A stretch of DNA of 64,000 nt from Medicago truncatula (Eukaryota; Streptophyta; Magnoliopsida; Fabales; Fabaceae): contig NC_053042.1 of NCBI RefSeq assembly GCF_003473485.1, positions 50,245,762 through 50,309,761 on the forward strand. Reading direction: 5' to 3'. Shown here piece after piece: positions 26,201 through 63,972 of the stretch (its first letter is position 1; each line of letters starts with the position of its first letter). A program made the position numbers and the translations under genes. The notes beneath the pieces were generated by a model. The model was not told the DNA's origin. It saw only the letters and a program-made list of their open reading frames with translations, and did not search any database.

Positions 26201-28020
26201 TCCCCCTAATGTATCGTGTACTAAAATATGTTGAAAACACGCATCCAGTATTGCAAGCAAACAGAAATGTAGAGTCGGCCAGAAAGGAAAAACATGCTGA
26301 AGGAGAAAAAAAAAAGAATTAAATGGGAGAATTGAGACCAACAACCATTTAAATAGATAATGTTAGCAACAAAAAGTGTAAGCCGGGTAAAGAGAATGAA
26401 ACGGTACCTCCTCAGGAGACACACCGGCGTCTTCAAGGCTGCTCTGGATGCATGTAGACACGCCGAGTCCGTCAGATCTTGGATCAGTCATGTGATAAGC
26501 ATCACAGTTAACAGCACCTCCCAAATATTCAGCAATAATAGGTGCACCTCGCTTCATGGCATGTTCCAGGCTTTCCAATACCTGTGAAGTTATAGTACTC
26601 TCGTTACAATATAGAAATTAGCTTAAATAGGACCCAAAAAAACAGGACACACACAACATGGCTACTTCTTAAACACTTCAAAGATGCAAGGTTTAGAATT
26701 ATTCTTTTTTGGATCATGTACAAAGGAAAAGATAATGCTGTTACAATGCTCACAATAGTATTAAAAATAGATCATCTTAAGAAGCAAGTATAGCAGTAGC
26801 AATTGCAATTGAATTCTACTCAATCATGAATTTTGTGTATATTTTTACTCAAATGTTAGTATTTAGTTGTTAGATTAATTATTTATTCATTTGTCTGAGT
26901 TTGAACTCAGGACCTCCAACACCTTAACCCTTGAGCTGCCCAACTCCCCATATTGTTAATTAAGGTAACCAACAACATCCAATCCAAAACAATAACAAGA
27001 AAACATTAAAGACGTTGAGAGAAATAAATCCTTACCAAAACTCCAGAACCTTCACCCATAACAAAACCATCACGTGCTTTATCCCAAGGCCTAGAAGCAG
27101 TTTTAGGGTCATCATTTCTCTGAGAAAGTGCCCTACAAGCAACAAAACCACCCAAACCAATCGGAATAATCGCAGCCTCAGTCCCACCGGCGATCATCAA
27201 ATCAGCCTCACCTCTACGAATGTGATTGGCAGCAGCATAAAAACAATAATTTGAAGTAGCACAAGCAGTAGAAATAGAATAATTTGGACCCATAAAACCT
27301 AAATCAATCCCAAGCAAAGCTGAACCCATATTTGTAATAGCATAAGGAATAAAAAAAGGTGTTATCTTTCTATATCCCTTTTCAATCAAATTCTTAACTC
27401 CTTCAGAAAATACAGTTAAACCACCCATTCCTGACCCAACCAAAACACCAGCACGTTCCTTATCAATCTGCAAAATCAAAATTGAAAATCCAATTTAAGG
27501 TTTAGTGAGAAAATCAAATAAAAAAAAAAAAGTGTGAAATGAACAAAACGAGACAAACCTTGGATAAATTTGCAGCACCGAGATTAGCGTGTTCGAGTGC
27601 TTTCTTACCGGCGACAATGCAGTACCGGAGACAATCATCGAGTCTCCGGTCATTCTTCCCGTCAATGTAACCCTCAGAACTGAAGTCACGGATCTGACCA
27701 GCGAATCGAGTTGGGAATTTGGAAGCATCAAATCTATCAATGGAAGTGATACCACTCTCACCAGCGAGAAGCTTATCATAGTAAGCATCAACGTCATTTC
27801 CAAACACCGAAGCAAGACCCATACCGGTAATCACAACACGCTTCTTTGGATCCTTTTCTCTTTGAGGCGCAGTGGTGGTGGTGACCGCGGCGGAGATACG
27901 AGTAACTCTCTTTGTTTTGGCGGTGGCGGTGGCGGCATTGGAGGATTTACGGCGAAGTGGTTCGAGCGGTGAAGGACGGAGAGTGGAGGGAAGTTGTTGT
28001 TGAATCTGAACTGATTGCAT
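23263..28020 (-). CDS. KAS1: 3-oxoacyl-[acyl-carrier-protein] synthase I, chloroplastic
   Basis: Beta-ketoacyl-ACP synthase I condenses malonyl-ACP with growing acyl-ACP (C4 to C16) in plastid fatty-acid synthesis. Seven exons: 27559-28020, 27036-27467, 26408-26581, 24762-24875, 24533-24634, 23427-23493 and 23263-23330. All introns are GT-AG, giving 472 residues, the usual length of plant KAS I. Residues 1 to about 50 are rich in Ser/Thr/Ala/Arg, a plastid transit peptide; the condensing domain starts at KKRVVITGMG. Visible catalytic residues are Cys223 (STACATSN), His363 (NAHATST), Lys394 and His399 (SMIGHCLGA). The C-terminus has the conserved NSFGFGGHNS loop. KAS I is favoured over KAS II because of overall length and the close match to KAS I signature stretches such as RRLDDCLRYC. 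The ATG at 28018-28020 opens the transit peptide. Intron 3 (1.5 kb), intron 5 (1.0 kb) and intron 2 hold transposon insertions. Confidence 0.95.
23699..23921 (+). mobile_element. Full-length tRNA-derived SINE in KAS1 intron 5
   Basis: Has polymerase III box A TGGCCTAGTGG (23711-23721), box B GGTTCGATTCC (23762-23772), a tRNA-unrelated body and an A-rich tail. It is flanked by AAATAAAGGGA at 23684-23694 and 23922-23932, a target-site duplication. It lies antisense to the host gene. Confidence 0.85.
23956..24224. mobile_element. Stowaway-type MITE in KAS1 intron 5
   Basis: Begins CTCCCATTGTCTCC, ends GATAAAATGAGACAGAGGGAG, and TA flanks both sides (23954-23955, 24225-24226). The GTCTCCTTTTATTTGTC arm pairs with the right arm. 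Confidence 0.75.
24233..24419. mobile_element. MITE with AGGATCCTCTCCATTTATG termini, KAS1 intron 5
   Basis: Left AGGATCCTCTCCATTTATG and right CATAAATGGAGAGGATCTT are inverted. The centre holds a GTGGGTCC/GGGACCCAC inverted pair. Third small transposon in a row within the same intron. Confidence 0.7.
26865..26965 (-). mobile_element. Decayed tRNA-derived SINE in KAS1 intron 2
   Basis: On the minus strand a box-A-like GGGCAGCTCAAGGG is followed by a box-B-like GAGTTCAAACTC, then AT-rich sequence. Spacing is near that expected for a tRNA head. No target duplication was confirmed. Confidence 0.4.
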
Positions 28021-29828
28021 TGTAAGTGTTTGATGAAATGACTGACACTAACTGACGGAGAGTACGAAGAAGGTGAGTGAGTGTGAATGAGTGTGTAATG
28101 TAAGGTAAGATAGTTAGTACTAACAAGTTGTTGGTATTTAATGTATTTTGACGGTAATAACTATGTTTTCTTCTGCATTGGAAATTTCGGAGTTCATAAA
28201 TATAACGGCAACTTTGACATGTCCACCACTTCTTTAGGTGGTTCATAATAGATCAACTACCCCATTTAATTTTTTCTAACTAGTAGGGATTCGTTAGCTC
28301 ATACAATTTCCTCTCATAAAATAGATTTTGACTAATATGCATAAATTTGTTTTCTAGTATTGAATCAGGAAATTAGTCATTTAAGTGTGTCTTTGGATTG
28401 CCATCACGTTTTCTCAAACCCCACATTTAAAGTCACGTTAGCAGTGAAGTGAAGCTAAGTATTGTAGCTTCGTGCTTTTAGCGTTTGAGGTGCATTGGGG
28501 CGCAAGAATGTCGTGAAAAATGCTTTATCAAATAAGCTATAAGCGTATTTACCGTCTTTAATTTGCGTAGAGAAAGGTGTTGACACTTTTCATTTACGTG
28601 GTCTGGGTTTATGGTTAGGTATTTGAAAGCTAAAAGTTTCACAAAAAAATAAACAATCTTATTTAGCGAATGTGTTGTGGCTATTTAAGTTTCCATGTTT
28701 CCTTAATTCTATTCACCGAAGGATTTGTTTAGATGAAATTTTAACTCGCATATCAAAACTATTACGGCTTAACGATCTATTAATTTGACAACATGGGAAG
28801 GTGGTAGCAGTGTGGAAGCAAGGGCACTGTCTTCGTGCTTCATCTCTAGATTTACATCGACAATATCCAAACATGCAAGTTGGTCCCCAAGCATTCAATT
28901 TTATTACACTTAGTGAAGAAGGCGTCATCAAGCACTAGTAAATACTCAATAGTTGATAAATATTCAACTCATGTTGATGTTGTCAATAGTTAATCCACTA
29001 GTCCATTCCTTCGTAAATGTCAATCAAGCATACCAGATAGTGTGTTTCAGTACTTGTTGCAGGAGTTTGGTGTTTCAATCCCACTTGAAAATAGAATGCA
29101 TCATTTTTATCCTTTCACTTCATTCCACCCATTTCTTCAATCTTTCAAGCAACTTGGCAATTTCTGGATGATCATGCTAATGAGAAGAAAGAACAACATT
29201 GATTCTCCACATGTGAACATTGATACCGCATCGCTTCCTCTAAATTCCAGTTCTTCGTCATGATCTTGCTCCTTTTCATTGTGCCTCAAGCATCCATTGC
29301 TCCATCTCAAGTATATATATATGCTCATTAACTTCATCTGTCATAACCTTGTGTTAATAAAAAATAAGATATAAAGGTCAAGATACTTTGTCCTCCTTTG
29401 GCATAAATAACCGTGTGGACACACTTTTGAGTTCTTTAACAAATTAAAAGAATGTCCACATATATCTATGTATATAATAAAAACACAGATCAAAATAGAG
29501 AAACATTCAAAGTAAAACACGATTGAAAGTTTTTTTGAGAAAATATTAGAGACTCCACCAGCAACAACTTGCTTATTTGTGCAGCATCACAATTCCCTCT
29601 TTTTTTCCCACTCTCTCCGGTCCCATATTATAAGTCATTTTCTTGGCATGCACAAAGAAGTAATTTGATTTCATTCGTCATTGTTCTTGATAAAAAGAAC
29701 AATACAGCAGAACAGCTTATACACTATGGTAAAGAAACTATCTAGCTGAAACAGTTACAGAACTGACTATTTATATTCTAATTAAACTATAGTTAATATA
29801 TATAACACGACCAGAGCATTGAACATCA
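28021..29828. other. Intergenic, KAS I promoter side
   Basis: The part next to 28020 should hold the KAS I 5' untranslated region and promoter; no convincing TATA box was identified. The remainder has short ORFs without domains. Near 29610-29640 there is a CTCTCCGGTCCCATATTATA word like one Stowaway end, without a partner. Confidence 0.4.
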
Positions 29829-29833
29829 GCGGG

Positions 29834-29876
<43 letters not shown>

Positions 29877-29901
29877 GCGTGTTCGATCCACGCTCACCGC
29901 A
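29829..29901 (+). tRNA. tRNA-Phe (GAA)
   Basis: A 73-base cloverleaf with acceptor 5' GCGGGGA and 3' TCACCGC plus discriminator A. The D arm is GCTCAGTTGGGAGAGC. The anticodon GAA is at 29862-29864 in loop CTGAAGA, and the T loop is TTCGATC. There is no intron and no encoded CCA. Internal box A (TAGCTCAGTTGG) and box B (GTTCGATCC) drive polymerase III. The fifth acceptor pair is a G-A mismatch, a feature I recall from plant cytosolic tRNA-Phe, so this does not mark a pseudogene. Confidence 0.97.
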
Positions 29902-36800: not shown

Positions 36801-37030
36801 TACAATGATATTTCAATCATCAATCACTCTTTTAAAACTATTAAAAAACTTTAATTATTCGGTGTAATTACTTTTTCCTAAAACAATTCATTTTTTGGTC
36901 ATGCAAAAGTATAATTACAATGATATTTCAATCATCAATCACTATTTTAAAACTACTAAAAAACTTTAATCATTCGGTGTAATTACTTTTTCCTAAAACA
37001 ATTCATTTTTTGGTCATGCAAAAGTATAAT
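36801..37030. repeat. Tandem duplication, 2 x 115 bp
   Basis: 36801-36915 and 36916-37030 differ at only a few bases. Both start TACAATGATATTTCAATC and end GGTCATGCAAAAGTATAAT. The copies are head to tail with no spacer. Confidence 0.95.
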
Positions 37031-37256
37031 TAATAGAAAACATAAAGTTCAAAAGGTTGAATGAATAAAAATTAACATTTAAGTTTTGTCATGCAGCTAT
37101 AATTGTCACATACTATTCTAAATTGACAGGAAAACCCATGAAGTGTGCAATACAAATATACAATTACCAACTCTTGGCTTAACCAATGAATCTGAAATGT
37201 TACATAGCATATGGACCACAACCTGATTTACCAATGGAAGAAGTGACACTTGAAAC

Positions 37257-37262
37257 AAAAAA
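37257..37262 (-). terminator. Polymerase III terminator of 7SL copy 1
   Basis: Six A residues on the plus strand, so TTTTTT on the transcribed strand, directly follow CCACCACC-like sequence at the RNA 3' end. Confidence 0.75.
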
Positions 37263-37562
37263 GTGGTGGTTCAGGTGGCTAGGCTCACCAGGCATATTGG
37301 ACTAGAAGTGCAGCGGCCAGTTATCCCTCCACTGTCAAGAGACGGAGGTGTTTGCTGCTCTGTGAAACCAGCCTCACACAGTGCCCTCCAGTCTAGGACC
37401 AAGGAGACTCAAGCCTTCGCCTAGGTCACATTGGCCAACTCTCAACTTGGAGTGGGCAGGCCAGCATGGTGCAGCCACCAACCCAACCTGGCAAATCTTA
37501 AGCCATGTTCCATCACCTTCATGCCCCCACTTGGGTTACAAGTTGAAGTTACCCAACTCGGC
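37263..37562 (-). ncRNA. Signal recognition particle RNA (7SL), copy 1
   Basis: The minus strand reads as a plant-type 7SL RNA of 300 nt. The start GCCGAGTTGGG is followed by the Alu-domain word CTTGTAACCC, with the conserved UGUAA loop at 37535-37540, then GTGGGGGCATGAAGGTG. Mid-molecule lies the SRP54-binding hairpin TGAGGCTGGTTTCACAGAGC, with AGCAG after it (37348-37386). The 3' part has GGCCGCTGCACTTCTAG, as in SRP RNA 3' ends. Length, order of domains and a USE/TATA polymerase III promoter 30 bases upstream all agree. SRP RNA scaffolds the particle that targets signal-peptide proteins to the ER. The plus-strand ORF across it is spurious. The family call rests on motif memory, not a covariance search. 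Confidence 0.82.
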
Positions 37563-37584
37563 AAGCTGGCAGCCTTGCCAGAAG

Positions 37585-37627
37585 TTTATATAGACTTATT
37601 TCTATCATGAAATTCTCGATGTGGGAC
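37585..37627 (-). promoter_or_regulatory. Plant polymerase III promoter (USE + TATA) of 7SL copy 1
   Basis: On the minus strand GTCCCACATCG (37617-37627) exactly fits the plant upstream sequence element RTCCCACATCG. TATATAAA (37585-37592) follows after 24 bases and begins at -30 from the proposed start. About 24 bases between the two elements is the spacing known to select polymerase III over II in plant snRNA and 7SL genes. Confidence 0.88.
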
Positions 37628-38775
37628 TTCTAAATGTTAACTAAAACTTCTTCCCCTTCCACCATGTTCATTGTTCAACTTTCATTGCTCACCTAAGCTT
37701 TTGAATTAAGATGCTATGCTAATTTTATTGATGTAGGTTTCAAGGCTTCGTTGTGTTTAAGCTTTTGGGCTCTCCTTCTATGACTGTCCTAATTCCTACA
37801 CATATATATTTGATGCTATGGTATAGGAAGACCATATAGACTTCTGAAGAATGACATTTGTATAATGACATTTGTATAAGGGTGCAGAAGACTCCTCCAA
37901 AGTTCATTTTGATTGTATTCCATTTCACAATTTACATGTGATGTGAGTGTGGGTTAGAATCACCAAAATTGTATGGGCAAAACAACATCTTAATTAGTTG
38001 ATGATCATGTAAAACAGGCCATTCTTTACACCAAACTATCAACAGCAGATTGTGAAAAAACAAGCATAAGAATTGTTTAGTGCCATTTTCTAAATACAAT
38101 GAAAGTTTAAACCTCAATCTCTTAAGGTACTAAAAGGTGGTTTACTGTCATATATTTTCCTAATCTTGAATTAATTCCATTGTAATTTGTTTGATGAACA
38201 CTCAAGTTTTTCTCAACCAATATAGCTACAGTGTCATTTTTGTTTATATATCACAATTAAAACTAATATTTTTAAATTAAATCATTTTCAAAATCTTACA
38301 GCTTTAAAATGTATTTGATCCTTAAGAAAATGTATTTGATATGCATACATATTTTATTTGCGTTCATGTTCAAACCAATTCAAACTAAACTGCAACTTGA
38401 TAAAGAAATAAAAACTGCAGAAAATTAAATATTGTTGGATATGTTCGTATGTTTAAAAAACTAAGCAAAGTGCACATGTATATTTAATAGTTGTTTTTAA
38501 TTTTTTTACTGGAATGATATATTCCATTAACCAATTATTTGTTGATATTAATTCTTTTAAAAATACTTATTAGTTCAATTCATATGTTTTAACCCCCTAT
38601 GTAATCGATGTTTTTCATTACGCTGTGCGCGCGCATGTGTCAATATATATCATTTTGTATCATACCAATTATTTTATCATATCTTTATAATATTTATATT
38701 AATACAATTTTTTATAGTTGTAATTTGGATATTCAAAAGCTAACCTAAATTAAATCGCATAAAACTGGATATTTC
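37628..38775. other. Intergenic upstream of 7SL copy 1
   Basis: 37628-38135 is part of the duplicated block; the remainder is AT-rich. Minus ORFs at 37740-38117 are not conserved in frame between the two copies and are judged non-coding. Confidence 0.5.
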
Positions 38776-39232
38776 AATATTTTGTTTTGGTCCCATTAAA
38801 TTTTTTGTTCGACTTTTAGTCATCCAAAAATGTTACATCACCACTTTCTATACTTTTAAGTCAACTCAATTGTATTATTCCTAATTTTTAATTTTTTGAC
38901 GCAATCATATTTAGTACATTATAGAATTCTCTCGAAAAAGTTAAATTTTTTTAACAAGAGATGAATTAAATATAAATTTTTATTTTTTTTGTGATTAAAA
39001 ATTCATATTTAATACATGTGTTTTTTAAAACTCTTTTTTTTTTGGAGAAAATCTTTATAATATTTTAAAAATTTATGCAAAATTTTAGTCGAAATTTCGA
39101 ATGATACATATGAGTTGACTTTAAAGTAGGGACTAAAAGTGACGATGTAAATTTTTTAGTGGACCAAAAGTCAAAATATTTTAGGGAGAAGAAGACAAAA
39201 AGTTTGAATGTTTATTGAGAACAAAACCATAT
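38776..39232. mobile_element. Decayed TIR element of the GGTCCC family
   Basis: Left TTTTGTTTTGGTCCCATTAA and the right complement around TTTTAGTGGACCAAAAGTC are inverted. An internal AATTAAATATAAATTTTTAT against AAAAATTCATATTTAATAC pair mirrors the centre of the element at 50325. Same family, older copy. Confidence 0.5.
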
Positions 39233-39468
39233 TGTAATTACTCCTTTGTAATTACTCCTTTCTTAAACAACTAGTTACAATCCCGTGCTTCGCACGAGTT
39301 GAATAACGTATTTTTTTAAAATTTAGTTTCGAAGGAGAAATCTTATAAATTACGGAAAATTGTTGTCCTTTATAAATGTGAAAATCAAAGCTGCGTAAAC
39401 CAAAATTTTGCAACACAGAGCCTAAAACACTACATAAAAAATAACATAACAACTATTATAATATCTTA

Positions 39469-41860
39469 TTCCTTAAAGTTAACCCGAACGCAAAATTTTG
39501 CTCAAGATTTAACCTAACTTCTTTGCTTAATTTTATTGTATTAATCCTATTTAATTTAATCAAAATGTTAACGTTAATTGTTAGGGAGATCAAAATAAAC
39601 AAATCGCTTCTAATTTTTCTCCTTAATTTTACTAAACAAATTATATTAACCCTAGATTTAATTTATGCAAAACGTCATCTCTTATCTCTTATTTTTAAAT
39701 GTTAACCCGTGACACAATATTAACCCTAGATTTAACCTAATTTTTTCGTGTGACTTTACTATATTAACCCTAGATTTAATTTATGCAAAATGTCATATCT
39801 TATTTCTAAATGTTAACCCGTGATGCAATATTAACCCTATTTTTTCGCATGACTTTACTATATTAACCCTAGATTTAATTTATGTAAAATGTCATCTCTA
39901 ATTTTAATCTAATTTTTTCCTCCACACTTTTGCATTTAATGTTTATCTAAAGTAAAATAAAAGTATGTTCCCAATTATATGCTGTTTTTTTGGAAAGGAA
40001 TAACCGTTAACCCGTCTAGCTATACTTAACTTAATCTCTTACTTATAAATGTTAACCCGTCTTGCTATACTTAAGCTATTTTATTTTATTTCTTAAAGTT
40101 AACCCGGACGCAAAATTTTGCCCTAGAATTAATCTAACTTCTTTGCTTAATTTTACCGTGTTAACCCTATTTAATTTAATCAAAATGTTAACGTTAATTG
40201 TAGGGAAATTAAAATAAACAAATCGCTTCTAATTTTTCTCCTTAATTTTACTAAAAAAATTATATTAACCCTTATGCAAAATGTCATCTCTTATTTATAA
40301 ACGTTAACCCGTGACGCAATATTAACCCTAGATTTAACCTAATTTTTTCGTGTGACTTTAATATATTAACCCTAGATTTAATTTAGGGTTAATATGTCTT
40401 TACCCCCCTGTAATTTGGGCGAGTTTCGGTTTTCCCCCCTATAAAAAAAAAAGTTTAGATTCCAACCCTGTAAAATAAGATTCTTTGATTTTAGCCCCTG
40501 ACCCATGTGACTGTGCATAATTGCTGACGTGGCGGGCTGAGTGGCATGCTGACTGTGCATATCTGATTATGTGGCGTGCTGACTATATAATTAATTATTT
40601 TTTTATTTTAAAAAATATATAAAAATTAAAAAAAATAAGGATTTTTTTTATTATGAAAAATATTTTCTAAAATATTTATTTTTCGAAAATTCCAAAATTT
40701 ATAATTTACGAAAAATATATATTTCAAAATTTTTTAAAATTATTTTCAAAAATGTTGAAATATATATTTCAAAAAAAAATTCAAAATTATTTTCGAAAAT
40801 TTGGAATATATATTTTTTAAGTTTAAAACAGATTTTTTTTCGAAAAATAAGTTTTTAAAATTTTCTCAAAAAAAAAAAAATCTAGATACAAATTTATTTA
40901 AATATTTAGATTTTTATTACGATGTGTTACAGATTTGAGAATATTTTTTAATATTCAAAAATTGAGGATAAAAAAAATCTGGAAATTTTTTTAATATTTA
41001 AATTTATTCTTATCTATTTGTTACATGTGTTATTTGTATTGAAAATTGTGGACATTTTTGAAAAGAAACAGCCAACCCAAAAGCTGAAAGGGGTTGTTTT
41101 CTTTATATATATTTCCAAAAATATTATATATAAAAAATTCATACAATTACTATATTTTGAAACTTTCGAAAAATTAAAAAAAAATCCAAATTAAATTAAA
41201 ATTTTAAAAATATTCGAAAAAAATAATATAAACTAATTTTTGAATGTTTTGGTAAAAAAATTAATATTTTTATTTTTTGAAAAAAAATCCAATTTTTTTT
41301 TTCATTTTTTAAAAAAAATTGTTTTTTTTTTCTTGATTTTAAATTTTTGAAAATGAATTTTCAGTTTTTTTTTATCTTTTTAAAAATAATTTATTAAACC
41401 ATTACACACATGTCAAATTTAAAAAAAAAATTAAAATTAAAATAATTACACAGTGGCGTGCCATATCAGCGTCTGAATGGGGTCAGGGGTGTTTTGTGGA
41501 GAATCTTCATATTACAGGGGTGTTTTGTGGAGAATCTTTATATTATAGGGTTGGAATCTAAACTTTTTTTTTTACAGGGGGGAAAATCGGAACTCGCCCA
41601 AATTACAGGGGGGTAAAGACATATTAACCCTTTAATTTATGCAAAATGTCATCTCTTATTTCTAAATGTTAACCCGTGACGCAATATTAGCCTTAGATTT
41701 AACCTAATTTTTTCGTGTGACTTTACTATATTAACCCTAGATTTAATTTATGCAAAATGTCATCTTTTATTTCTAAATGTTAATCGGTGATGCAATATTA
41801 ACCCTAGATTTAACCTATTTGTTCTAAAAGTACTTTTTTTAGTAAGTACTTAATTGATAT
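39469..41860. repeat. Tandem-repeat block inside the Helitron
   Basis: Units of roughly 110 bp carry GTTAACCCGTGACGCAATAT, TTAACCCTAGATTTAA and TATGCAAAATGTCATCTC. Copies begin near 39703, 39815, 40303, 41669 and 41788. A longer module (39469-39715) recurs at 40091-40310. The block is split by the element at 40386-41630. Copies show mild divergence. Confidence 0.8.
40386..41630. mobile_element. Long-TIR Mutator-like element, 1245 bp
   Basis: Left GGGTTAATATGTCTTTACCC and right GGGTAAAGACATATTAACCC are perfect inverted ends. The TIR extends over 120 bp, for example GTTTAGATTCCAACCCT against AGGGTTGGAATCTAAAC. The 9 bp TTTAATTTA flanks it exactly (40377-40385, 41631-41639). Removing the element and one duplication restores a normal unit of the surrounding tandem repeat. 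The centre is extremely AT-rich with no ORF. A short duplication near the right end repeats GGGGTGTTTTGTGGAGAATC. Confidence 0.9.
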
Positions 41861-42865
41861 TGTGTTTTACCTAACTTCTCCTTAAAAATGTAGAGAAGTT
41901 TGAAAAACGTCGGGTCAAACGATACCTTAATCTCCCATAACGGCAATGTAGAAACAACTGAATTTGGGATAAAAAGTTGAAAAAGTTAAAAATATAAAAA
42001 TTGGAAAATAATTAAAAGTTATTAAAAATATAAAAATTAGAAAATAATTAAAAAAAATTGGTTAGGGGCAAAAATGGAAATTCATAGGCCATTGTTAAAA
42101 AAAACTCAACCAATAAGTAGATTACCAAATTGCCCCTTATAGGGGCAAAATGGTAAATTCAAGGGACATTTCTTTTCTTATTAGTATATATATAGATATA
42201 GATTCATTGTTTTTGTCAAAAAAATAATTCATTGTTTGGTAAAAAGAAAAAATATTTAAGAAAAACCATAAAACTCAAATGGTTGAATGAATGAAAAATT
42301 AACATTTATAATTTTGCCATAGAAAAATCCTAATCCTATAGATTACCAATTAATTATGTTACACATGATGTGCTTTAACTTATCCTATCACAATCCACAA
42401 ATATACATCAGTAGCTAAAAGAGAGAAATGAAGAGAAGGATGGAAACATATAGAGGGAAAGTGAAAAGGAGTGACTCTTATTTCACAGTCAACCTTGTGT
42501 GATTTATAGTCTGCACTCTACTCTATCTCGTTTGTGGTGTCAACAGCAAAATAAGACTTGAAGTTAAAAAGATTATTGTCACATAAATTGACCGAAAAAC
42601 CAGAAACAATAGTTTATGACTTTATGTCATTTTGTCAGGGTAAGAGAAGTATGCACTACAAATCTGCAATTAACATCAAAACACTCCTGGCTAATCTTTG
42701 TATCTGAATTGATGGAAAAGCCATTCAGCATTACCAATATGAAGTAGCATGACAAATTGCCATATATGCTAAAATTGAATGTATTAGTTGTAAAAGTGAG
42801 AACATAAGTGAACGCTGCCACACCTTAATTTACCAATGGATTATGGAACAAGTGATACTTGAAAC

Positions 42866-42872
42866 AAAAAAA
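42866..42872 (-). terminator. Polymerase III terminator of 7SL copy 2
   Basis: Seven A residues on the plus strand (T7 on the transcribed strand) at the RNA 3' end. Confidence 0.75.
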
Positions 42873-43183
42873 GTTGTGGTTCAAGTGGCTAGGCTCACCA
42901 GGCATATTGGGCTAGAAGTGCAGCGGCCAGTTATCCCTCCACTCACTGTCAAGAGCCGGAGGTGTTTGCTGCTCTGTGAAACCAGCCTCACACAGTGCCC
43001 TCCAGTCTAGGTCTAGGACCAAGGAGACTCAAGCCTTCGCCTAGGTCCCATTGGCCCAACTCTCAACTTGGAGCGGGCAGGCCGGCATGGTGCAGCCACC
43101 AACCCAACCTGGCAAATCCTAAGCCATGTTCCATCACCTTCATGCCCCCACTTGAGTTACAAGTTGAAGTTACCCAGCTCGGC
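42873..43183 (-). ncRNA. Signal recognition particle RNA (7SL), copy 2
   Basis: Same architecture as the copy at 37263: GCCGAG start, ACTTGTAACTC Alu loop, GTGGGGGCATGAAGGTG, and the identical SRP54-binding hairpin at 42961-43000. It then has the GCCGCTGCACTTCTAG 3' region and a T-run. It is 311 nt, longer by a CACT insertion and a duplicated six-base TAGGTC-type word near 43010. The promoter is intact, so it is probably expressed, although the insertions in the S-domain stem may affect folding. The plus-strand ORF here is spurious. Confidence 0.78.
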
Positions 43184-43205
43184 AAGCTGGCAGCCTTGTC
43201 AGAAG

Positions 43206-43248
43206 ATTATATAGAATTATTTCTTTCATGAAATACTCGATGTGGGAC
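43206..43248 (-). promoter_or_regulatory. Plant polymerase III promoter (USE + TATA) of 7SL copy 2
   Basis: GTCCCACATCG (43238-43248, minus) and ATTATATA on the plus strand (TATATAAT, 43206-43213) have the same 24-base gap and the same -30 position as in copy 1. Conservation of both boxes while the intervening bases drift supports function. Confidence 0.85.
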
Positions 43249-46200
43249 TTCTAAATGTTAACTAAAACTTCTTCCCCTTCCACCATGTTCAACTTTCATT
43301 GCTGGCCTAAGCTTTTGAATTAAGATGCTATGCTAATTTTATTGCTGTAGGCTTCATTGTGTTTATGCCTGTGAACTCTCCCTTTAAGACTGTCCTAACT
43401 CCCACACACATATATGTTAGAGGAAGACATATATAGACTTTTGAAGAATGACATTTGTATAAGGTTGCAGAAGACTCCTCCAAAGTTCATTTTAATTGTA
43501 TTCCATTTCACAATTTACACGTGATGTGAGTGTGGGTTAGAATCACCAAAATTGTATGGGCAAAACAACATCTTAATTAGTTGATGATCATGTAAAACAG
43601 ATCATTCATTAGACCAAACTATCAACACCAGATTGTGAAAAAACAAGCACAAGAATTGTTTAGTGTCATTTTCTAAATACAATGAAAGTTTAAGCCTTAA
43701 GGTACTAAAAGATTGTTCACTGTCACATATTTTCTTAATGCTGAACTAATTTTGCAACATGAGGTATACAAACCTAATATGTAATTGAATGCATGTATTA
43801 AAAAATACCCCTCATCATACATGTAAATTAAATTAATCCATAATTTTTTTAATTTCCGGAGTGTATTTCTACTGTCAAAAATGATCTTATATACTTGTTT
43901 TTCCTACAGTGCTTCAGAACTTACCAAGCATGCACTAGCAGCTATATCATGTTCTCTGATTAGCTGGAATCAAAGGATTTATCTCCAATCAAACAGTATC
44001 TCATATTGTAAACCCATGTGAACAACATTATTAGCCATACACAAGATTCTCCAAAGTTGTTGATTCAAAGCCTGTGCCTTGTATTGTCCCTTGTTTTAGT
44101 ATTCTAAACAAGGTAATAAACAATTTAAACTCCATTATTTTGTTTTAAGTCAAGTATTATTATCATGTAATGAATAACAGAATGTCTTTGAAGGGATATG
44201 TTGATTGTTGACTACATCCACATGGGGTAGAAGAGAAATTAAATCAAAATTTTGGACTCTCCTACAGGCCCCACTTGGAGAGGATCTTCTGCATTCAGAT
44301 ATCAGATTATGTTTTAAACATGTCTTCTTTACGTACCATATAAGAACTTTCCAAGAAAATGCATCATCACTGGCCCATCTTATATTACATGCTTTTGGAC
44401 TTTTGGGTTGGATTCGTTGAATGATTGCTATACTAGTTTTTAACCATAGAATAGAAGCAAATTTTTCATCAAATATTGTTTTTTTATTTTTTATTTTATT
44501 TTATTTTTTATTTTTTATAAATTATTGATATTATATATTCAACTAAGGTCCAAGACTCAGGAAACATATTTGCTGCTGTTACCGACATTTACCACATATA
44601 TGTACTATTTAACATATGGTTTAGAGTGATTTGCAAATAACTTGTACAATTTTACAGAATTAAGGGTATACATCATAGAGAAGGCAATGAGGAAAATTCC
44701 AAAGGTGGTGTTTCCTCCAACAGAACACCTTGTAAAATGGGGGAGCATATATGTAAACATGCCATGTGATTGCCAACTAGTGGTTTGTATATGAAAATAT
44801 ATCCTTCAGATCAAAACAAATATGCAAATTAATTACTTACTCTATTATATGAATAAGATGGGCCTATAGCTATTAATTTGATGTATACCTATGTTTACTG
44901 GCCATCCCTGGTTTATTAGACTTATGTCCCTTTTGTTAAATGGATTCTATGGATACATTATTTGCATGCAATTTATTGAGAATCGGTTACATTTACTCCT
45001 TATCCATCCATTCTATTATGACTGACATATTTCTATTTTTTTCACACAAATTAATGAAAAAATATAGATAAAACTATAGAGAAAAACCCTGGTGGCACAT
45101 TAATAAAAGATAATAAAGAATGATAATAGTTTATCAAGAGGATTACCCTTCACTTTAGAAGGGTGGATTAGGAATAATTCTAATACGGGACATGAATATT
45201 AGGACATATTTTGGACCCTTGCAAAAACACAAAAATGAAGGAAAAGAATAATTAAATAATATTTATTTTTTAAACTAATAATATATGATGTGCATTTTTT
45301 TGAGTGTGTGATCAAATAATGTATCTAAATCTAATGTCCACACAAGAATTGTTTGTGAATTAGACTTGATATGATATCAAGCCTATCATTTCGCACCATC
45401 CATCATTTATTATATCTAGACATTGGACACCAATTTTGTAAGGATGAGTTAGATTTAATTTAGAAACCTAATAAAAACAATTATATCAAATTAATCTAAT
45501 TAAGTTTTAATACATCATTTATTTGTTTACCGAACCTTGAACTAAATAGTTAAGGGGTTTAAATATCTATAACATGTGTTATGTTAAGTAAGGGGTCCAA
45601 GTAAATAAATCATTTAGCCACCATTGAAGCCAAGCAATCTTAATTTAAAGCTTGGTATGGGTGACCAATCTCATTCATAACTACTATCATAATCTGAAAC
45701 TATTTAAAACATCTGGCAATTGACATCTCTATAACTTCACGTACGGTCTCCAGTTTGTTTTGCAAGCTAACATGGAATTGTTGTTATCAGTGTCACATTC
45801 TGCTCAGCATACTGTAAAGGTTATGATGATGACTTCTAGCAAGGTCTTGGTATCATGAAAAATAAATACTATATTGAAAAAAAACCAGTATCTAAAGTTA
45901 TTCTTTACTTTTAATTTATTTATAACTTGTGCTTAACTTATCTAAAATAATAAAATTTGATAGTCACAGATAACATTCATTATTCTTCTTGACTACACAC
46001 GGATAGGAAGGGCACGTGCAAAAACTAAGGACACCTACCCCACAAACTTCTTCTAATTTTCTATAGTTCATGACCCCTACAATAAACCTTCAACTCTTAA
46101 TACAAAATTAATTTTGAGTATTTTACACGGATGCTGCATGTTCTTCACCTATTATCACATGCTTTCTGATCCACCCCATCCCATATTAACCCACATTTGA

Positions 46201-46572
46201 AATCACCAAAACACCCTTGAGTGACAGTCATTTATTCCCTATACTGTCAATGTGGGGACAATTAAAAAAATTCTTTTACATTTTAGAGGGTAAGGAATCT
46301 TTTTTTTTTTCTTGTCAAGGACCTTACCTAATTACATGAAATGGTAGTTAACATTTTAGTGCCAAAAAAAGAAAAAGATTTGATGTAACAGTTAGTTTAG
46401 GCTGTAAAATAGTGTTATATAATAATTTCAATAATGTGCCAATCCATATAGTACTGAAAGCAACTTGTCAATTATAGATACCAAGAGATCTACAAATAAA
46501 ATCATTTTGCAACTTTCTTATAGGTAGTTGCAACAATCCATGTTAGTTTACTAGGCACTTGAGAGAAAAGAG
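43249..46572. other. Intergenic, 7SL flank then IQD promoter side
   Basis: 43249-43720 belongs to the duplicate block. Around 44205-44420 a 71-codon ORF ends in a stretch faintly like the RNase H tail of LINE proteins; I do not call it. The rest is AT-rich; the part before 46573 should hold the IQD promoter and 5' untranslated region. Confidence 0.4.
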
Positions 46573-48897
46573 ATGGGAAAAAAAGGTAAATGGCTCAAAA
46601 ATTTCTTGACAGGGAAGAAGGACAAAGAAAAAGAGAAGGAAAAATGTAACACAAACCAGAATTTTTCAAATGGAACAGAAAATCCAACTACTCCTGTTTC
46701 AACAACACCCTCAAAGGAGAAGAAGAGATGGAGTTTTAGAAGATCATCAGCAACAGCTACACCAACAGCTTCCAAGGAATTGAATAATTCTGAAATTACT
46801 GCTTCAATGACAGTGCAAAGTACTGTCATTGATATTCAGAATGAGCAAAGGAATCATGCCATTGCTGTGGCTGCTGCTACAGCCGCGGCAGCTGATGCAG
46901 CAGTGGCAGCTGCACAAGCTGCAGCTGCTGTGATCCGGTTAACTTCTGGTTCAAATGAAACATCTAAAAGTATTGAAGATGCTGCTGCTGTTAAAATTCA
47001 ATGTGTCTTTCGATCTCACTTGGTATGAAGTTAGTTTTCCTAGTCCTTGAAATTTTAAGGGTCGGTCAATTTAATCTTTCAAATTTGCGAATTAGTATTT
47101 TAGTCCCTTAAAGTGAACAATGTCAGATAATTTCGTTGTTTTTCCAAATTTATCGCCACAATTTAAGGGTCGGCCAATTTAGTCCTTCAAATTTGTAAAT
47201 TGCCCTACTTTACAATTTCAAGGACTGAAATACTTATGGTTTGTGAATGTGTGAATGTTTCTGTGACAGGCAAGAAAGGCATTGCGTGCTTTAAGAGGAT
47301 TGGTGAAGTTGCAGGCACTGATAAGGGGTCACTTGGTGAGAAAACAAGCAAAGGCAACACTCAGATGTATGCAGGCTCTGGTCACAGCACAAGCTAGAGC
47401 TCGTGCTCAAAGGATCCGAATGGTGTCAGAAGGAAAGCCTCATCTAAATCACAGAAATGCTATGGAAAATGACTTGTTCAGGCAAATATATAATGTTAGT
47501 TCTCTTACTACTACTAATTAATAATTATCTTTTCTTACCAATTTGAATTTGATTGTTGAAATTTTCTGAATTGATGTCATAAACATGATTGGAAATTATC
47601 TATATCGAATTGAAAACAACATTTAGTTCAAGTGTGTTTTCAATTTGACACATAAATTTTGTAGGTAAAGAAAGTAACAAGTTTCATTTTGCATTAGTTA
47701 AAACATTACTCTATCATGAGCCATGGCACCACACTTTATATTGAAAGTGTGTCTGAGCATCCAACAAGCTACACTACTGTTTCAGACCGACACGACACCA
47801 ACACTTGTGATTACATACACTCACTTCTATTATCTTAAATTATTACCAGTGTGTATGTGTAAGCATAGTATCATGTCTTGTGTACGTTTTAGTATTTCAT
47901 AGGTCACGGGAATTAACAAACTTATTCTTAAAACTCAATTTTTTTTGCTTGAGTAAACTTAAAACTCAATTAGTGCCTAGAAAATTGCTTCTTTTGTGTG
48001 TTGTAAAATCCAAAGTAAAACATGTTACATTATAAAATTGTTTAGTCTATCCAAATGAGGAACAATATGAAGTAGTTCTAGTCATGAAATTCGGTTTTGT
48101 GCATGTAGGAAATGGACAGAGGCTTGGAAGACAACATCAAAATTGTGGAGATGGATTTTTGTGAATCAAAAGGCAACTCTACAAGCAGAAGCAGCAGTGT
48201 AAATAGACAACATTATGAGCAATCTGAAAATAGATATTCCATAAATGGTTCCTATACGAAAGAAGAAAACTACAAAGTATCACCAGCTCCATCAGCTTTA
48301 ACAGAATTGAGTCCAAAAGCATGCAGTGGCCATTTTGAGGATTGCTTCAGTACAGCTCAAAGCAGTCCTCAATGCTATTCTGCTATATCAAAAACAGATG
48401 AATCAAATCACCCTTTTGCTTTCCCTAGGCCATCTTATGCAGAACAAATGTCCTATGACTACCCTTTGTATCCAAGTTACATGGCTAATACAGAATCATC
48501 AAGAGCTAAAGTTAGATCACAAAGTGCACCAAAACAAAGGCCTGATTCATTTGAGAGGCAACTGAGTCGGCGGAGAATTTCGGTTGAAGGAAGAAATGTT
48601 CCTAGGCCAGTGAGGATGCAGAGGTCATCTTCACAAGTAGGTGCAGCTGCTCAGAACTACCAATATCCATGGTCAATTAAGCTTGACAGATCGGCGGTTT
48701 CACTCAAAGACAGCGAGTGTGGTTCGACAAGTACAATGCTCACAAACACTAATTACTGCAGATCCCTTGTTGCATATGATGTGAGTAGTACTAGTTTTTA
48801 TCATACAATCGTTTGAAGAAAAAAAAAATATATCGGATAAGTCATTAATTGCTTTGTTACATTGTTTTGATTGCAGCCAGAGGGAGATAGGTACTGA
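46573..48897 (+). CDS. IQ67-domain (IQD) calmodulin-binding protein
   Basis: Four coding exons (46573-47022, 47270-47494, 48109-48780, 48877-48897), all GT-AG, give 455 residues. The N-terminus [16 protein letters not shown] is Lys-rich, as usual in IQD scaffolds that bind microtubules or the nucleus. An Ala-rich helix (about residues 92-120) precedes the IQ67 domain (about residues 138-205). There IQ motifs [32 protein letters not shown] and [20 protein letters not shown] follow each other, split by an intron between the first and second as in the family. The C-terminal third has the DUF4005-type [14 protein letters not shown] and VRMQRSSSQ motifs. The last exon adds only PEGDRY; reading through intron 3 would instead give a different 11-residue tail. 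IQD proteins recruit calmodulin and kinesin light chain-related proteins to the cytoskeleton (family knowledge). Member number not assigned. Confidence 0.92.
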
Positions 48898-50324
48898 GTG
48901 TGTACCTTGTGCAACACTAAAATAGAAGTCACATTGCAAGACCAACAAAAACGTAAGCATTGAGGTGTTAAGGTTTCTGAGTTCTTCTTTTCCTTTTAGA
49001 GTTCCAAAGAAAATATAAGTTCTGTTTTTTATGATATAGAGTGCTGGGATTTATTGAAAGTACAACTTCTGTAGAGTTTTTTTTTCTTCTTATATTCATT
49101 GTTTGTACTGTCTGTGAATTACATTTGTGTGAAGGATTTGTAATGGTTTTTTGTCATGTATAAATGTTACCAAGTTAGATATATTTCAGAACAGCACTGT
49201 TTTACTAAAGAGTTGTTTATTTTCTTTGATGATTTACTTAGTCCATCACTAGTTGACAAATATTCTTCAAGAGGGCAAGGACCACATCCACATGTTAATT
49301 GATGTCAAAATGTCAATACTTAGTACCTATAGTTGAAGCTAACTACTAACAAGTGCACTACAAAACACTAAAGTACCTATACTGGTACATTTTGTTGACA
49401 GAAATTTTCATGATTTTATCATGAGTGCTAGTACCGCATGTTAGTGACATCCATACAAAGTGGTATTGGTACTGCCACTCTAAAGAAAATTTCTTATAGA
49501 ATGTATCTTGAGGCATATAAACTATTCATAATTCTGTTACCTATATCTTTGTCACTTCCAAAAGCCCGAAAACTATTCTATTCATAAACTGAACAATAGT
49601 TGAGTTTGAGGTAACATCCAATTTCATGCTGCACATTTGCATTACTAATCACATCATAGTTGAACCAAGGGAGCAATATGTTTTTTAATATACATCATTA
49701 GTACAAAGGTAATTATTTTATCAAAAAATTAAAATAAAATTACAAAGGTAATCAAGATTGAGCTAGTGATCTTGAGTGCAATTAGAAAATGTAATCAAAA
49801 TTGAAATTTTGAAATAGGTGGTGTAACTGTTCTTCTGAGGTTGTAGAAATCTGGATATTATATACATAATGGGGGGTGGCATTAAATACATGATTGGAGC
49901 ATTACAAAATGTTACTATCTTGTTGATCTGGTGTCATCTTTATACCTCTTTTAATGTCTCAAATCAAAGAGATTGTTGCTTTTTTGGCCCAAAAAATGCA
50001 CAAACCGTTCCAAAGATAACATTCGGGTGATAACTCATGAAGGTTGTTTTTCAAGATAAAGAGCAAATAGAAGGCTAAAGAAGAACGACCATCAAGCAAA
50101 GAACTAGAACCCATAATCTTGTAACAGATCTACAAAGTACTGCTCATTGTGTCTTTTGGCCGATCAATCATATATATATTTGTGAATTTCTTTTCCACCT
50201 CCAACATTCTCGTACACCATATTTTCGAATTATAAAATCCAAAAATTGAGAGCTTTGGAAGGTTTTTGAGCGTGTTTTACACTTTTCGAATTATATACAA
50301 AAAAAATTCCTATTATATATTAAT
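48898..50324. other. IQD 3' untranslated region and intergenic
   Basis: The first few hundred bases are probably the transcript 3' end (T-rich, with TTTGTACTGTCTGTG at about 49103). No other feature recognised. Confidence 0.45.
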
Positions 50325-50827
50325 GGGTTAAATATGTTTTTGGTCCCTATAAATATACAAATTTTTTTCGTTTTTGTCCCTCTAAAATTTTCCTTCAACT
50401 TTTGGTCCTTTAAAAATTTTTCATCTTCACTTTTGGTCCCTCCTTTAAAGTAAACTCATATGTAGATTCATATTTTTGAATAAAATTTTGCAGAAAATTT
50501 CATAATATTGTAAGAATCACTCCCAAAAATAATTAGAATTTTTTAACAAAACATGAATTTAATATGAATTTTTATATTTGTGAATGTTAAAAATTCATAT
50601 TTAATTTATGTTATGTTAAAAAATTCTAATTTTTTTTAAAAAATATTTTTACAATATTCTACACATATCTCCATAATTTTATTAAAAAAAATACCAAAAT
50701 TAACTTAAAAATAGGAACCAAAAGTAGTGATAGAAAATTTTATAGGGACTAAAAATTGAAAGAAAATTTTAGAGGGACTAAAACGAAAAATTGGTATATT
50801 TATAGGGACTAAAAACATATTTAACCC
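50325..50827. mobile_element. Mutator-like MITE, 503 bp, intact ends
   Basis: Left GGGTTAAATATGTTTTTGGT and right TAAAAACATATTTAACCC are inverted, continuing through CCCTATAAATATAC and further for over 100 bp. TATATTAAT flanks it exactly (50316-50324, 50828-50836). The centre is a second fold-back (AACAAAACATGAATTTAATA with its complement). The best-preserved copy of a family also seen at 12013 and 38776. Confidence 0.88.
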
Positions 50828-52546
50828 TATATTAATATAGCAGATTACTCATATGGCATGTATCGAAAAATAATCATGTGTCATCAAAATAATAATAATG
50901 ACAATAATATATTTCTTTATACCAATAATGGGTTGGTCCTTAAGCATGTGGTTGGGGTTTGGTTTCTAGCTCATGCATACGGAAAAAATCTAGTTTGGGT
51001 GGAAGAATTCACATTGTGTGCTTCGAAGATTAATCATTGTTAAGCGGTGATGAAAACTTCGTATTAATATTATGGTAAAAAAATAAAATCTTTGAGTAAA
51101 GTGGAACATGTATCATTTTTTTAAAATTAATAAAAAAAATATCCTTGTTTGTGTACTTGAAAGAGTAATAAACTGTTTTATCTGCACTCCTTGACAATTT
51201 TTTCCTATACCATAAAAGTGAGTTGAAAGTTTCTTATGCTTTCTACCAACTAGTTAATGATTAATAATAAAACGTGTAAAAATTTAAGTCAAAAGGAAAA
51301 GCTAACGATATGAGAAAATGAAAACCTTTTCGTCCTATTTTATTCTCTTTCCATCTTAGTTTTCATTTTTTTTCACCTACTGAATACGTTTATTATAAAA
51401 TGGTAATAATAGATAATATAGGCCACAATCTGCCACGAACCTTCATAGGAAGTATAACATAATAATAATAATAATAATAATTGTTGCTGGCATTCATATT
51501 TCATAGAAATTTTCTAAAAAGAATGACATATATAGTGTAGTTTGTGTTTTAGTTTTACTCAGTCCAAAACGTTTGGTGATATTGTACATTGACATCAACT
51601 AAGATACAATCATTCTAGAAACTAACAGCACTATACGTCAAGTTTTGTATAATCGCCCTTTATTTGTCTCTTATGCCAAATTGTGCATGTAAATATCAAA
51701 CATGTCTATATCTTCTTTAAAACTAGAGTGCACTGCCACTTAATATAGAGGATAAATTTATGGAGTCATAACTGTATCAATGATACTAGGAACTATAATC
51801 ATGTACACATATACAATTATCACAATTCACAAACTTTAGCTGATTTTTTAATTAATATGATACGGTCCCACGGATATGCTTTGTATTTGTACATTTCAAA
51901 AAATTAATAATGATAATCTCTTCCTTGGTTATCTCATGGTGTTTGACTTTGATTGGCTCTTCAATCTCTATATCCTTAATTTAATATATTAACTTATTAT
52001 AATTAAGTTTCTTATCACAAGTGGGATAAAATTATACTACATGTTTTCATATCACAAGAAAACGACTTAAAGAATTTTTCTCCCTTAAATTTCAACCATG
52101 CTTAAATAGACCATGTAGCCAAGCTTTCCTCCCCATGAATTCTTCTTGTGGTAATTCCTTCCCATGGATTTTATTACCTACTCTACCGTCTTCAGTTTAA
52201 CTAATTATGAAGACTTGGCTTTTATTTTCACAGTGATTTTGGAAGAAACTGAATTACACAAAATTTTATAGTAGTTGACAATAAAACATCTATATATGCC
52301 ACTTGAATAAGTTGAATTGCATAATAAAAAATGTTGAATGTAACTAGGCAACATATATATGCAGAAAATTTGCTAGAGGAGGAAAATGAAAAAAAATACT
52401 AAGACATGAAAGCTACTTGAACAATAGGGACATATGGAATTGAAAAGTGTCGAAATACCATCAATGTTAGTTCTACCCTGATGATGTGAAATTATTGTAG
52501 GTGAGTATGTATAATGCTACTGAAATATACTGCATGAATTTTTTTT
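50828..52546. other. AT-rich intergenic, possible SINE remnant
   Basis: At about 50930-51045 GGTTGGGGTTTGGTTTCTAG resembles a decayed box B region followed by a conserved-looking non-tRNA body; low certainty. An (AAT)n run lies at about 51460-51482. Nothing else recognised. Confidence 0.35.
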
Positions 52547-54712: not shown

Positions 54713-55784
54713 AATTTTTTTTCTAAAAATAAGAAACATGCATGAAAGTCAAATTGCTATAGTCAAAGGAAATAAACATGTGTGCTTATATAAATAAGCT
54801 AAAGATGGTAAAAACCGTGTTTCTGGTGAGATATAAGCCACCAATTTTCTTCCGGTCTTCTACAATATGCAATTAAACATCAGCATTGTCATCGTTTACA
54901 TTGCATGCCAGTTCATTGCCACCATGTAATACTGCATAGTAGCCTTTTCAGCACAGTTGAATCCACAAATAATCAAATTAGTATAACTAATTTTTTTCAG
55001 AAATAGTAGAACTCATATGTATGAATGATAATATTAAAAGGTAAGTTGTATTGTGGTGGTAATAAATTATTTTAAACACATATTTAATCCCATTTTTATT
55101 TTGTTTCAAAATACTGAAGTCACAATTTGAAATTGTCACTGCTATTATTTTTATTTTAAAAATTAAATAGCACGTTGAGTGTTAGATTAGATATATAATT
55201 TTCTTAGCCTTTATAAGCATCTTTGAATTACTACTTATGACTTATATAATTTTGTTATACCAGTATCATAATTTTATTTTCATAGGACCCTATATATTGT
55301 AATTCGAGTTAAATTACAGAATTTGAATACTAAATAAAGCCGGCAGCATTTCATTTTGGCAGTCCTATCCACAAAGCCTCAAACAAAATAAACTTAAATT
55401 AAAAGTACAAAAGAAACAGAAAAATCAATTTATAGTATAGAACTAAAATCAAATTAAATTTGAAACCTTTCATCAAAGAAATAAAAATGGTAAAAGACAT
55501 TTGAACATATGATAGGTAGTTTAATCTAGTTGAATATTCAAGCAATATAATTAGAAATTTTCAATATAAAAACAGAAAAAGAATGCAAAAAAGTCTAACC
55601 AAAATATACACATTCTTCATTTCTCAAAGTATAAAAATATTATAATCATGATCAAAAGCTGTATGGATGTCCGTTTAAATGTCTAACCAAACCAATCACT
55701 CTATTATTATTTTATAAGAGTAATGTCAATTTGCAGCACAACAAACAGAAACTTCCAAAATTTCTCCAACATACACACACCCCT
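54713..55784. other. Intergenic, promoter side of the first LRX gene
   Basis: The stretch 55200-55345 recurs at 58040-58178 and marks the upstream edge of the tandem duplication. No other feature. Confidence 0.5.
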
Positions 55785-55792
55785 TATATAAA
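55785..55792 (+). promoter_or_regulatory. TATA box of LRX copy 1
   Basis: TATATAAA begins 52 bases before the ATG, in a promoter block shared with copy 2 at the same distance. CACAACAAACA and CTCCAACATACACAC words just upstream are conserved too. Confidence 0.7.
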
Positions 55793-55836
55793 TTCACATT
55801 CCCATAACACAAAATCAAACCCATCCATTATCAGTA

Positions 55837-57267
55837 ATGGAATCCTCTTATAGTCTACAATTCTTAATTACCTTCATTGTCATTCTCATATCCATCAACC
55901 CCTCATCACACCAATCTCTACCACCACTAAACCCAAGACTCACCAAAGCCTACATAGCACTCCAAGCATGGAAACAAACATTCACCTCAGACCCAAAAAA
56001 CACCACCTTAAACTGGTATGGCCCAAATGTATGCAACTACACAGGTATCTTTTGTGCACCGTCACTAGATGATCCTTACATCAATACCGTTGCTGGTATA
56101 GACATAAACCATGCAAACATAGCAGGTTCATTACCAGAAGAACTTGGTCTTTTAACAGACATAGCTCTTTTCCACATAAACTCAAACCGTTTCTATGGTT
56201 CACTCCCCAATAGTTTCAACCACCTTCACCTTCTCCATGAGCTAGACATCAGTAACAACCAATTCTCAGGAACATTCCCGGAGGTTGTTCTTTGCATTCC
56301 TTCATTAAAATACTTGGACATAAGATACAACAATTTTCAAGGAAATGTTCCTAAAGGCCTCTTTGATCTCAAACTTGATGCACTTTTCATCAACAACAAC
56401 AAATTCAAATTTTCTTTACCAGAAAATTTCGGAAAGATGCCAGCTTCTGTTGTTGTGTTCGCGAACAATGATATACAAGGTTGTATTCCATCGAGTGTAG
56501 CGAATATGAAAGATACAATCAACGAGATAATTATGACGAACAGCAGAATGAAAGGCTGTTTACCTAATGATATAGGAAAATTGGATAAAGTGACAGTGTT
56601 TGATGTTAGTTTTAATGAGTTTGTTGGTGAATTGCCTGAAAGTATCAGTGGAATGAAAAGTTTGGAGCAGTTGAATGTGGCACATAATAAATTTTCTGGT
56701 GTTATTCCTGAGAGTATATGTAGATTGCCAAGGTTGGAGAATTTGACGTATTCGTATAATTATTTTAGTGGTGAATCAAAGATTTGTGTGAACTTGGATG
56801 ATAAGGATGATAGGAAAAATTGTATTCCTCATAGGCCTTTGCAAAGATCGAGTGATGAGTGTGATGCTTTTTATAAACATCCTGTTCATTGTACTGGTGT
56901 TGGTTGTTCTTTTGTAACTCCACCGCCACCTCCACCACCACCTCCACCGCCACCTCCTCCACCACCACCACCGCCACCACCACCTCCACCTCCTCCTCCG
57001 CCACCACCGCCGCCGCCTCCACCACCACCACCATCACCGCCTCCACCTCCACCTCCACCACCGCCGCCTCCACCTCCACCTCCACCTCCTCCTCCGCCAC
57101 CACCACCACCTCCACCTCCTCCTCCGCCACCACCACCGCCGCCGCCTCCACCACCACCACCATCACCATCACCGCCTCCACCTCCACCACCTCCTCCGCC
57201 ACCATCTCCTTGTCCGCCACCACCTTCACCACCTCCTCCTCCGGCAACTTACTACCATTATCTCTGA
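55837..57267 (+). CDS. Leucine-rich repeat extensin-like protein, long proline tail
   Basis: Intronless, 476 residues. A signal peptide (residues 1 to about 26, hydrophobic core FLITFIVILISI) sends it to the cell wall. An N-terminal capping region follows (ALQAWKQTFTSDP, CNYTGIFC). About ten LRRs then fit the plant extracellular form (for example LDISNNQFSGTFPEVVLCI and LNVAHNKFSGVIPESICRL), to about residue 318. A Cys-rich hinge (CVNLDD, NCIPHRP, CDAFYKHPVHCTGVGC) links to the extensin part. That part is about 110 residues almost entirely proline, with few serines, and ends TYYHYL. LRX proteins bind RALF peptides and couple cell wall and membrane during growth (family knowledge). The canonical Ser-Pro4 and Tyr cross-link repeats are nearly absent, which is unusual. 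The ATG at 55837 matches the start in the paralogue at 58882. Confidence 0.92.
   Translation: MESSYSLQFLITFIVILISINPSSHQSLPPLNPRLTKAYIALQAWKQTFTSDPKNTTLNWYGPNVCNYTGIFCAPSLDDPYINTVAGIDINHANIAGSLPEELGLLTDIALFHINSNRFYGSLPNSFNHLHLLHELDISNNQFSGTFPEVVLCIPSLKYLDIRYNNFQGNVPKGLFDLKLDALFINNNKFKFSLPENFGKMPASVVVFANNDIQGCIPSSVANMKDTINEIIMTNSRMKGCLPNDIGKLDKVTVFDVSFNEFVGELPESISGMKSLEQLNVAHNKFSGVIPESICRLPRLENLTYSYNYFSGESKICVNLDDKDDRKNCIPHRPLQRSSDECDAFYKHPVHCTGVGCSFVTPPPPPPPPPPPPPPPPPPPPPPPPPPPPPPPPPPPPPPSPPPPPPPPPPPPPPPPPPPPPPPPPPPPPPPPPPPPPPPPPPSPSPPPPPPPPPPPSPCPPPPSPPPPPATYYHYL
56919..57243 (+). repeat. CCN-codon minisatellite encoding poly-proline
   Basis: Built from CCA, CCT and CCG codons. A 126 bp (42-codon) higher-order unit is visible: TCCTCCTCCGCCACCACC starts at both 56991 and 57117, followed by GCCGCCGCCTCCACCACC and a CCATCACC serine codon each time. 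Length is therefore likely variable between accessions. Open reading frames on both strands across it are composition artefacts. Confidence 0.9.
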
Positions 57268-58829: not shown

Positions 58830-58837
58830 TATATAAA
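58830..58837 (+). promoter_or_regulatory. TATA box of LRX copy 2
   Basis: TATATAAA 52 bases before the ATG, identical in position to copy 1, so both copies keep the core promoter. Confidence 0.7.
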
Positions 58838-58881
58838 TTCACATTCCCATAACACAAAATCAAACCCATCCATTATCGGTA

Positions 58882-61773: not shown

Positions 61774-63972
<2,199 letters not shown>

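Follow-up and report, generated by a model that had tools for sequence, protein, structure and literature searches.

Two duplicated 7SL (SRP) RNA genes in a 64-kb window of Medicago truncatula, one probably functional and one of doubtful function

Two minus-strand loci in the window (the whole 64-kb stretch analysed here, C1:50245762-50309761 of a 429.9 Mb, 42-contig genome) are plant 7SL RNA genes of an ordinary kind and belong to a gene family that is large in this genome. 7SL RNA forms the scaffold of the particle which directs newly made proteins to the secretory system. Judging from sequence comparison, it is very probable that a local DNA duplication made two nuclear 7SL RNA genes, of which copy A most likely works, contributing a minor share of the 7SL RNA beside a 34-copy array elsewhere, while copy B would be a weaker gene or a gene on its way to becoming a pseudogene. 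Evidence for the gene reading comes from the full sequence and fold, from an upstream sequence element (USE) and TATA box at Pol III spacing, from T-runs and from the duplicated flanks.

Results

Both loci were compared with the Rfam covariance model of plant SRP RNA (Plant_SRP, RF01855; gathering score 105 bits). Copy A (minus strand, 37562-37259) scored 245.8 bits with an E-value of 7.1e-72 and copy B (minus strand, 43183-42869) scored 210.0 bits with an E-value of 9.9e-61; both are above the gathering score and match all 305 model positions (1-305), and with such E-values a chance origin of the matches is excluded. The initial annotation, made by reading the sequence alone, had placed two minus-strand 7SL loci here with 5' ends at 37562 and 43183 and had proposed RF01855 as a check; the search on the minus strand of both regions gave these significant matches with the same starts. 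The lengths differ from the 300 and 311 nt given there, as the covariance model extends to 304 and 315 nt and includes the first Ts of the terminator. The proposed domain order, an Alu-domain TGTAAC loop followed by the SRP54-binding hairpin and the 3' region, agrees with both the model and the sequence. In common with the plant SRP RNA of RF01855, copies A and B show a full-length covariance match, the Alu-domain TGTAAC loop, a GAAG-loop hairpin and helix 8 with GTGAGG...AGCAGC; the SRP54-binding helix 8 is identical in the two copies, and after the TGTAAC loop copy B has one wobble change (CCCA to CTCA). Unlike the RF01855 RNA, copy B carries insertions of 6 nt, 4 nt and 1 nt.

The exact USE, GTCCCACATCG, occurs at only two sites in the 64 kb, 37627-37617 for copy A and 43248-43238 for copy B, both on the minus strand at -65. 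When one mismatch was allowed, three sites were found, compared to a mean of 0.55 in 100 shuffles (one shuffle reached three). A TATATAA box (minus strand, 37586-37592 in copy A and 43207-43213 in copy B) starts 24 nt after the USE and 30 nt before the gene start in both copies, and a T6 run at 37257-37262 and a T7 run at 42866-42872, on the same strand, are the presumed Pol III terminators of copies A and B, respectively. Exact matching and sequence inspection therefore confirmed at both loci the USE, the TATA box 24 bases further on and the terminal T-run that had been noticed before. According to a report on plant snRNA promoters (PMC9845283), the plant snRNA USE is RTCCCACATCG, the TATA box lies at -28 to -30, and the USE is one helical turn closer to the TATA box in Pol III than in Pol II plant genes. 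Copies A and B have this USE, a TATA box near -30 and the Pol III spacing, and thus share the consensus, the TATA position (-28 to -30) and the close spacing with the U6/U3 promoters described there; the U6/U3 promoters drive U6/U3 RNA, whereas the unit in copies A and B is a 7SL RNA of about 300 nt. As far as the sequence goes, the upstream boxes fit the plant Pol III arrangement, and the term "intact promoter" covers the upstream USE and TATA box alone. Yukawa et al. are said to have classed plant 7SL RNA genes in 2005 as Pol III genes with mixed promoters ("type 4"). Copies A and B resemble such type 4 genes in their upstream USE and TATA box at Pol III spacing, which we take to be the upstream part of a mixed promoter. 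The proposal of two duplicated, full-length 7SL genes with plant Pol III-type USE and TATA box is borne out.

Next to the 7SL pair, the window contains several other features. Tandem leucine-rich-repeat extensin-like genes lie at 55671-56960 and 58722-60005; their DNA is 96% identical and their proline tails differ in length. Among the best 120 of 900 matches to the LRR-extensin, the best named relatives come from Psophocarpus, Crotalaria, Arachis and Sesbania, all legumes, which makes a legume source likely; the closest match is 98%. An open frame at 12220-12615 matches PF00361 (NADH-quinone oxidoreductase membrane subunit) and is presumably a plastid DNA insertion. A tRNA-Phe (GAA) gene is found at 29829-29901, a minus-strand open frame matching beta-ketoacyl synthase (KAS) at 27006-28047, and a plus-strand open frame matching ribosomal S3Ae at 62795-63139. 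The plus-strand open frame at 46555-48816 encodes a protein with DUF4005 (48109-48816), which we assume to be IQD-like. A self-complementary repeat of 0.5 kb (50316-50839 and 38935-39237), 77% related to a stretch upstream of copy A, is perhaps a miniature inverted-repeat element.

The two genes sit within duplicated segments of about 0.94 kb, 37234-38176 (copy A) and 42843-43751 (copy B), which are 88.3% identical over 956 columns. A retrocopy origin was ruled out because the promoter, along with roughly 600 nt of DNA upstream, is part of the duplication. With gaps left out, A-B identity is 96.7% for the gene, 95.6% for an upstream block at 37853-38117 and 87.8% for the intervening 37679-37852; it reaches 100% over the 44 aligned bases immediately 5' of the USE and amounts to 87.0% in the USE-TATA spacer (3 of 23 columns differ), 93.5% from TATA to gene start (2 of 31) and 82.6% just downstream of the gene. 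Gene and middle region differ in conservation (p = 0.0004), whereas gene and upstream block do not (Fisher p = 0.51). The upstream block (43436-43700 in the copy B segment) is 89-90% identical to the related locus on C7, is non-7SL, and gave no Rfam match at E up to 1; the four weak matches to other Rfam families near the genes are all below their own family cut-offs. It may reflect gene conversion or an as yet unnamed element. The earlier statement that strict conservation is confined to the promoter boxes and core hairpins does not stand: this 265-nt non-7SL block equals the genes in conservation, spacer columns vary, and copy B also has insertions within the gene. A, B and C7 are approximately equidistant over 110 nt (37743-37852), while A groups with B in both the gene and the upstream block (Fisher p 0.0055 and 0.011). 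As the borders of that stretch were chosen after inspection, this pattern is no more than suggestive of A-B gene conversion.

Two copies lying 5.6 kb from each other in direct orientation, each about 0.94 kb long, could also be read as the LTRs of an element that captured a 7SL gene, and a 7SL-containing TRIM has been speculated on, with none found so far, in PMC10886601. However, homology between A and C7 extends to 38376 while the A-B match ends at 38176, and weak A-B homology continues further downstream (36995-37092 with 42221-42320). Because these homologies run past the edges of the A-B match, the edges are not element ends; we rejected an LTR origin and assign it a negligible probability.

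To place the pair in the genome, BLAST with copy A was run on the genome stretches examined and on the window, and every locus with more than 200 aligned query positions was counted; a fragment near C1:16171 kb, present as two shorter pieces, was not included. This gave a minimum of 42 7SL loci. The largest group is a tandem array of 34 at C1:16178661-16236969, whose units follow each other in steps of 1626-1828 bp; a solitary copy (C1:16150711) precedes the array by 28 kb, C5 has four copies, C7 has one, and the remaining two are those in the window. In eight pieces of the array region, Rfam gave 35 matches above the cut-off, one per locus (34 array and solitary), with the lowest scores coming from a divergent copy at the array end (162.4 bits) and a copy truncated at a piece border (146.5 bits, but 234.5 when scored in full). 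A genome search with RF01855, in which the best 28 of 1418 candidates were scored and all 28 were above the cut-off, provides a lower bound since copy B is absent among these 28. Array units 4-18 carry 0-5 substitutions in approximately 1727 bases relative to reference unit 14, and the other array units compared are 96.6-98.9% identical to that unit. Of the 42 loci, 40 combine an exact USE with a TATA-like box and a T-run. The helix 8 string was found in none of the viral contigs, and neither plant 7SL arrays nor Medicago 7SL were described in the titles and abstract starts of the literature matches listed.

A tree built from 24 distinct genes, which did not include the divergent array copy and whose bootstrap had not settled, shows the groups window plus C7 (100/99), C5 (100/99) and array plus solitary copy (100/98). 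Copy A is 91.1% identical to the C7 copy and 77.6-81.3% to the array, solitary and C5 copies counted. It is quite improbable, in our judgment, that the three lineages (window and C7; the four C5 copies; the C1 array), each holding the fold and copy A differing by about 20% from the other two, supply SRP populations with distinct assembly or use, the window pair being kept as a minority isoform for a particular task. When the window was compared with 50 kb of C7 (43983001-44033000), the matches consisted of the 7SL segment with its flanks plus scattered repeats, and the KAS and IQD-like exons of the window had no match there by blastn at E 1e-10. In these 50 kb the comparison thus speaks against a large duplicated block shared with C7, and a small segmental copy would be the likelier relation.

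We examined whether substitutions among the copies respect the RNA fold. Copy A and the C7 copy differ by 27 substitutions, and 104 standard pairs were counted against a random-placement mean of 91.9 (0 of 20,000 placements as high); in the other direction the count was 101 against 94.3 (p 0.0098). Over all 11 comparisons p ranged from 0/20,000 to 0.087, and for copy A against copy B alone the test was weak (p 0.031 and 0.087 depending on direction). In a further test on 12 of the 42 copies, in which the shuffles ignore relatedness and the structure comes from copy A's own Rfam alignment and so favours register 0, 82.2% of structure cells were paired compared to 35.6-46.0% when the structure was slid, and 37 cells had both sides changed compared to 18.7 after shuffling (0 of 500 as high). 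For these 12 copies, 35 of 500 shuffles gave at least as many pairs with both sides changed as observed, and 499 of 500 gave at least as many pair types. The fold is kept by paired changes among the relatives as a set, the signal being weak for A and B alone. Copies A and B both have the exact helix 8 string, which 5 of the 42 copies lack, C7 included. Changes relative to C7 that respect the fold support a functional history of the gene.

Copy B departs from the family in several respects. Its tandem-duplication insertions of 6 nt and 4 nt are absent from the other 41 of 42 copies, and its 1-nt insertion is private to it among 12 aligned copies. The 4-nt insertion interrupts ACAGTGGAGGG, which is intact in 40 of 42 copies, so that the conserved stretches are not uninterrupted in copy B. 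Its 210.0 bits are below every other scored copy (at least 218.6 bits) except the divergent array-end and border-cut copies. These features bear on the reading in which copy A works and copy B is a pseudogene or has been weakened by its insertions, with the 4-nt one enlarging an internal loop within a conserved part of helix 5, a reading to which we give slightly less than an even chance. It is favoured by the two longer insertions seen in one of 42 copies and the interruption of a stretch that 40 of 42 have intact, by the low RF01855 score, by the longer end branch of copy B (0.025 vs 0.01) and by five substitutions on the B side against three on the A side (two undecided). On the other hand, the fold can still form in copy B (102 of 123 standard pairs, compared to 101 in A), the A-to-B changes break two standard pairs and make three, and neither helix 8 nor the terminator is damaged. 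By single-strand folding energy copy B is not the worse of the two, because its z-score is -2.96 compared to -1.14 for copy A. We consider the function of copy B doubtful.

Discussion

The initial annotation argued that both copies are active, as only the promoter boxes and core hairpins appeared to be kept. This argument fails on three counts: the whole segment is similar at 88.3% with an upstream block conserved as well as the two genes, four loci elsewhere in the genome have the same USE and TATA box over an eroded gene body, and the insertions of copy B are found in no other of the 42 copies. A-B similarity alone does not show activity because the upstream block is as similar as the genes. 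The eroded loci were found by a search for USE, TATA box and GCCGAG, which gave seven places, namely the window pair, C7 and one each in L024-L027 (the other 7SL lineages start with GCTGAG; the pattern took GCCGAG). The loci in L024-L027 have a well-kept Alu-domain start, score only 36.8-42.1 bits and are without a full S domain; loci with promoter boxes and an eroded S domain lie at L024 582 and 1566, L025 1566, L026 1566 and L027 1565. In the one at L024 582 a single USE base is changed. Those of L026 and L027 precede the window start on C1 by about 141 and 134 kb and are separated by 6.2 kb. All of them resemble 7SL relics whose promoters are intact, and we infer that they are inactive. Since they keep USE and TATA box over eroded gene bodies, intact boxes do not show a working gene; the fold-preserving substitutions relative to C7 are a better argument for activity than conservation of boxes and hairpins.

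It is unlikely, though less so than the special-isoform idea above, that both window copies are pseudogenes, duplicated together with their promoters but silent, with 7SL RNA supplied by the tandem array and other copies. The 40 other matching loci in the stretches examined, the existence of relics with intact promoter and eroded gene, and the insertions in copy B would fit such silence, as would the observation that copy A is hardly more similar to C7 in the gene (91.1%) than in the distal flank (89.7%). Against it, the substitutions relative to C7 preserve base pairs beyond random placement, and copy A at 245.8 bits scores higher than every scored array copy (maximum 240.1). We concluded that copy A is probably functional.

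The pair itself is ordinary; the new points are that copy B is doubtful and that the genes belong to a large 7SL family of three lineages. The value of the finding lies mainly in annotation: the two are non-coding housekeeping genes that protein-based annotation would miss, and copy B should be counted as functional only once RNA supports it. The fairly uniform 34-gene array beside dispersed, divergent copies would make this genome a handy case for studying whether 7SL isoforms differ in function and how arrays are kept uniform.
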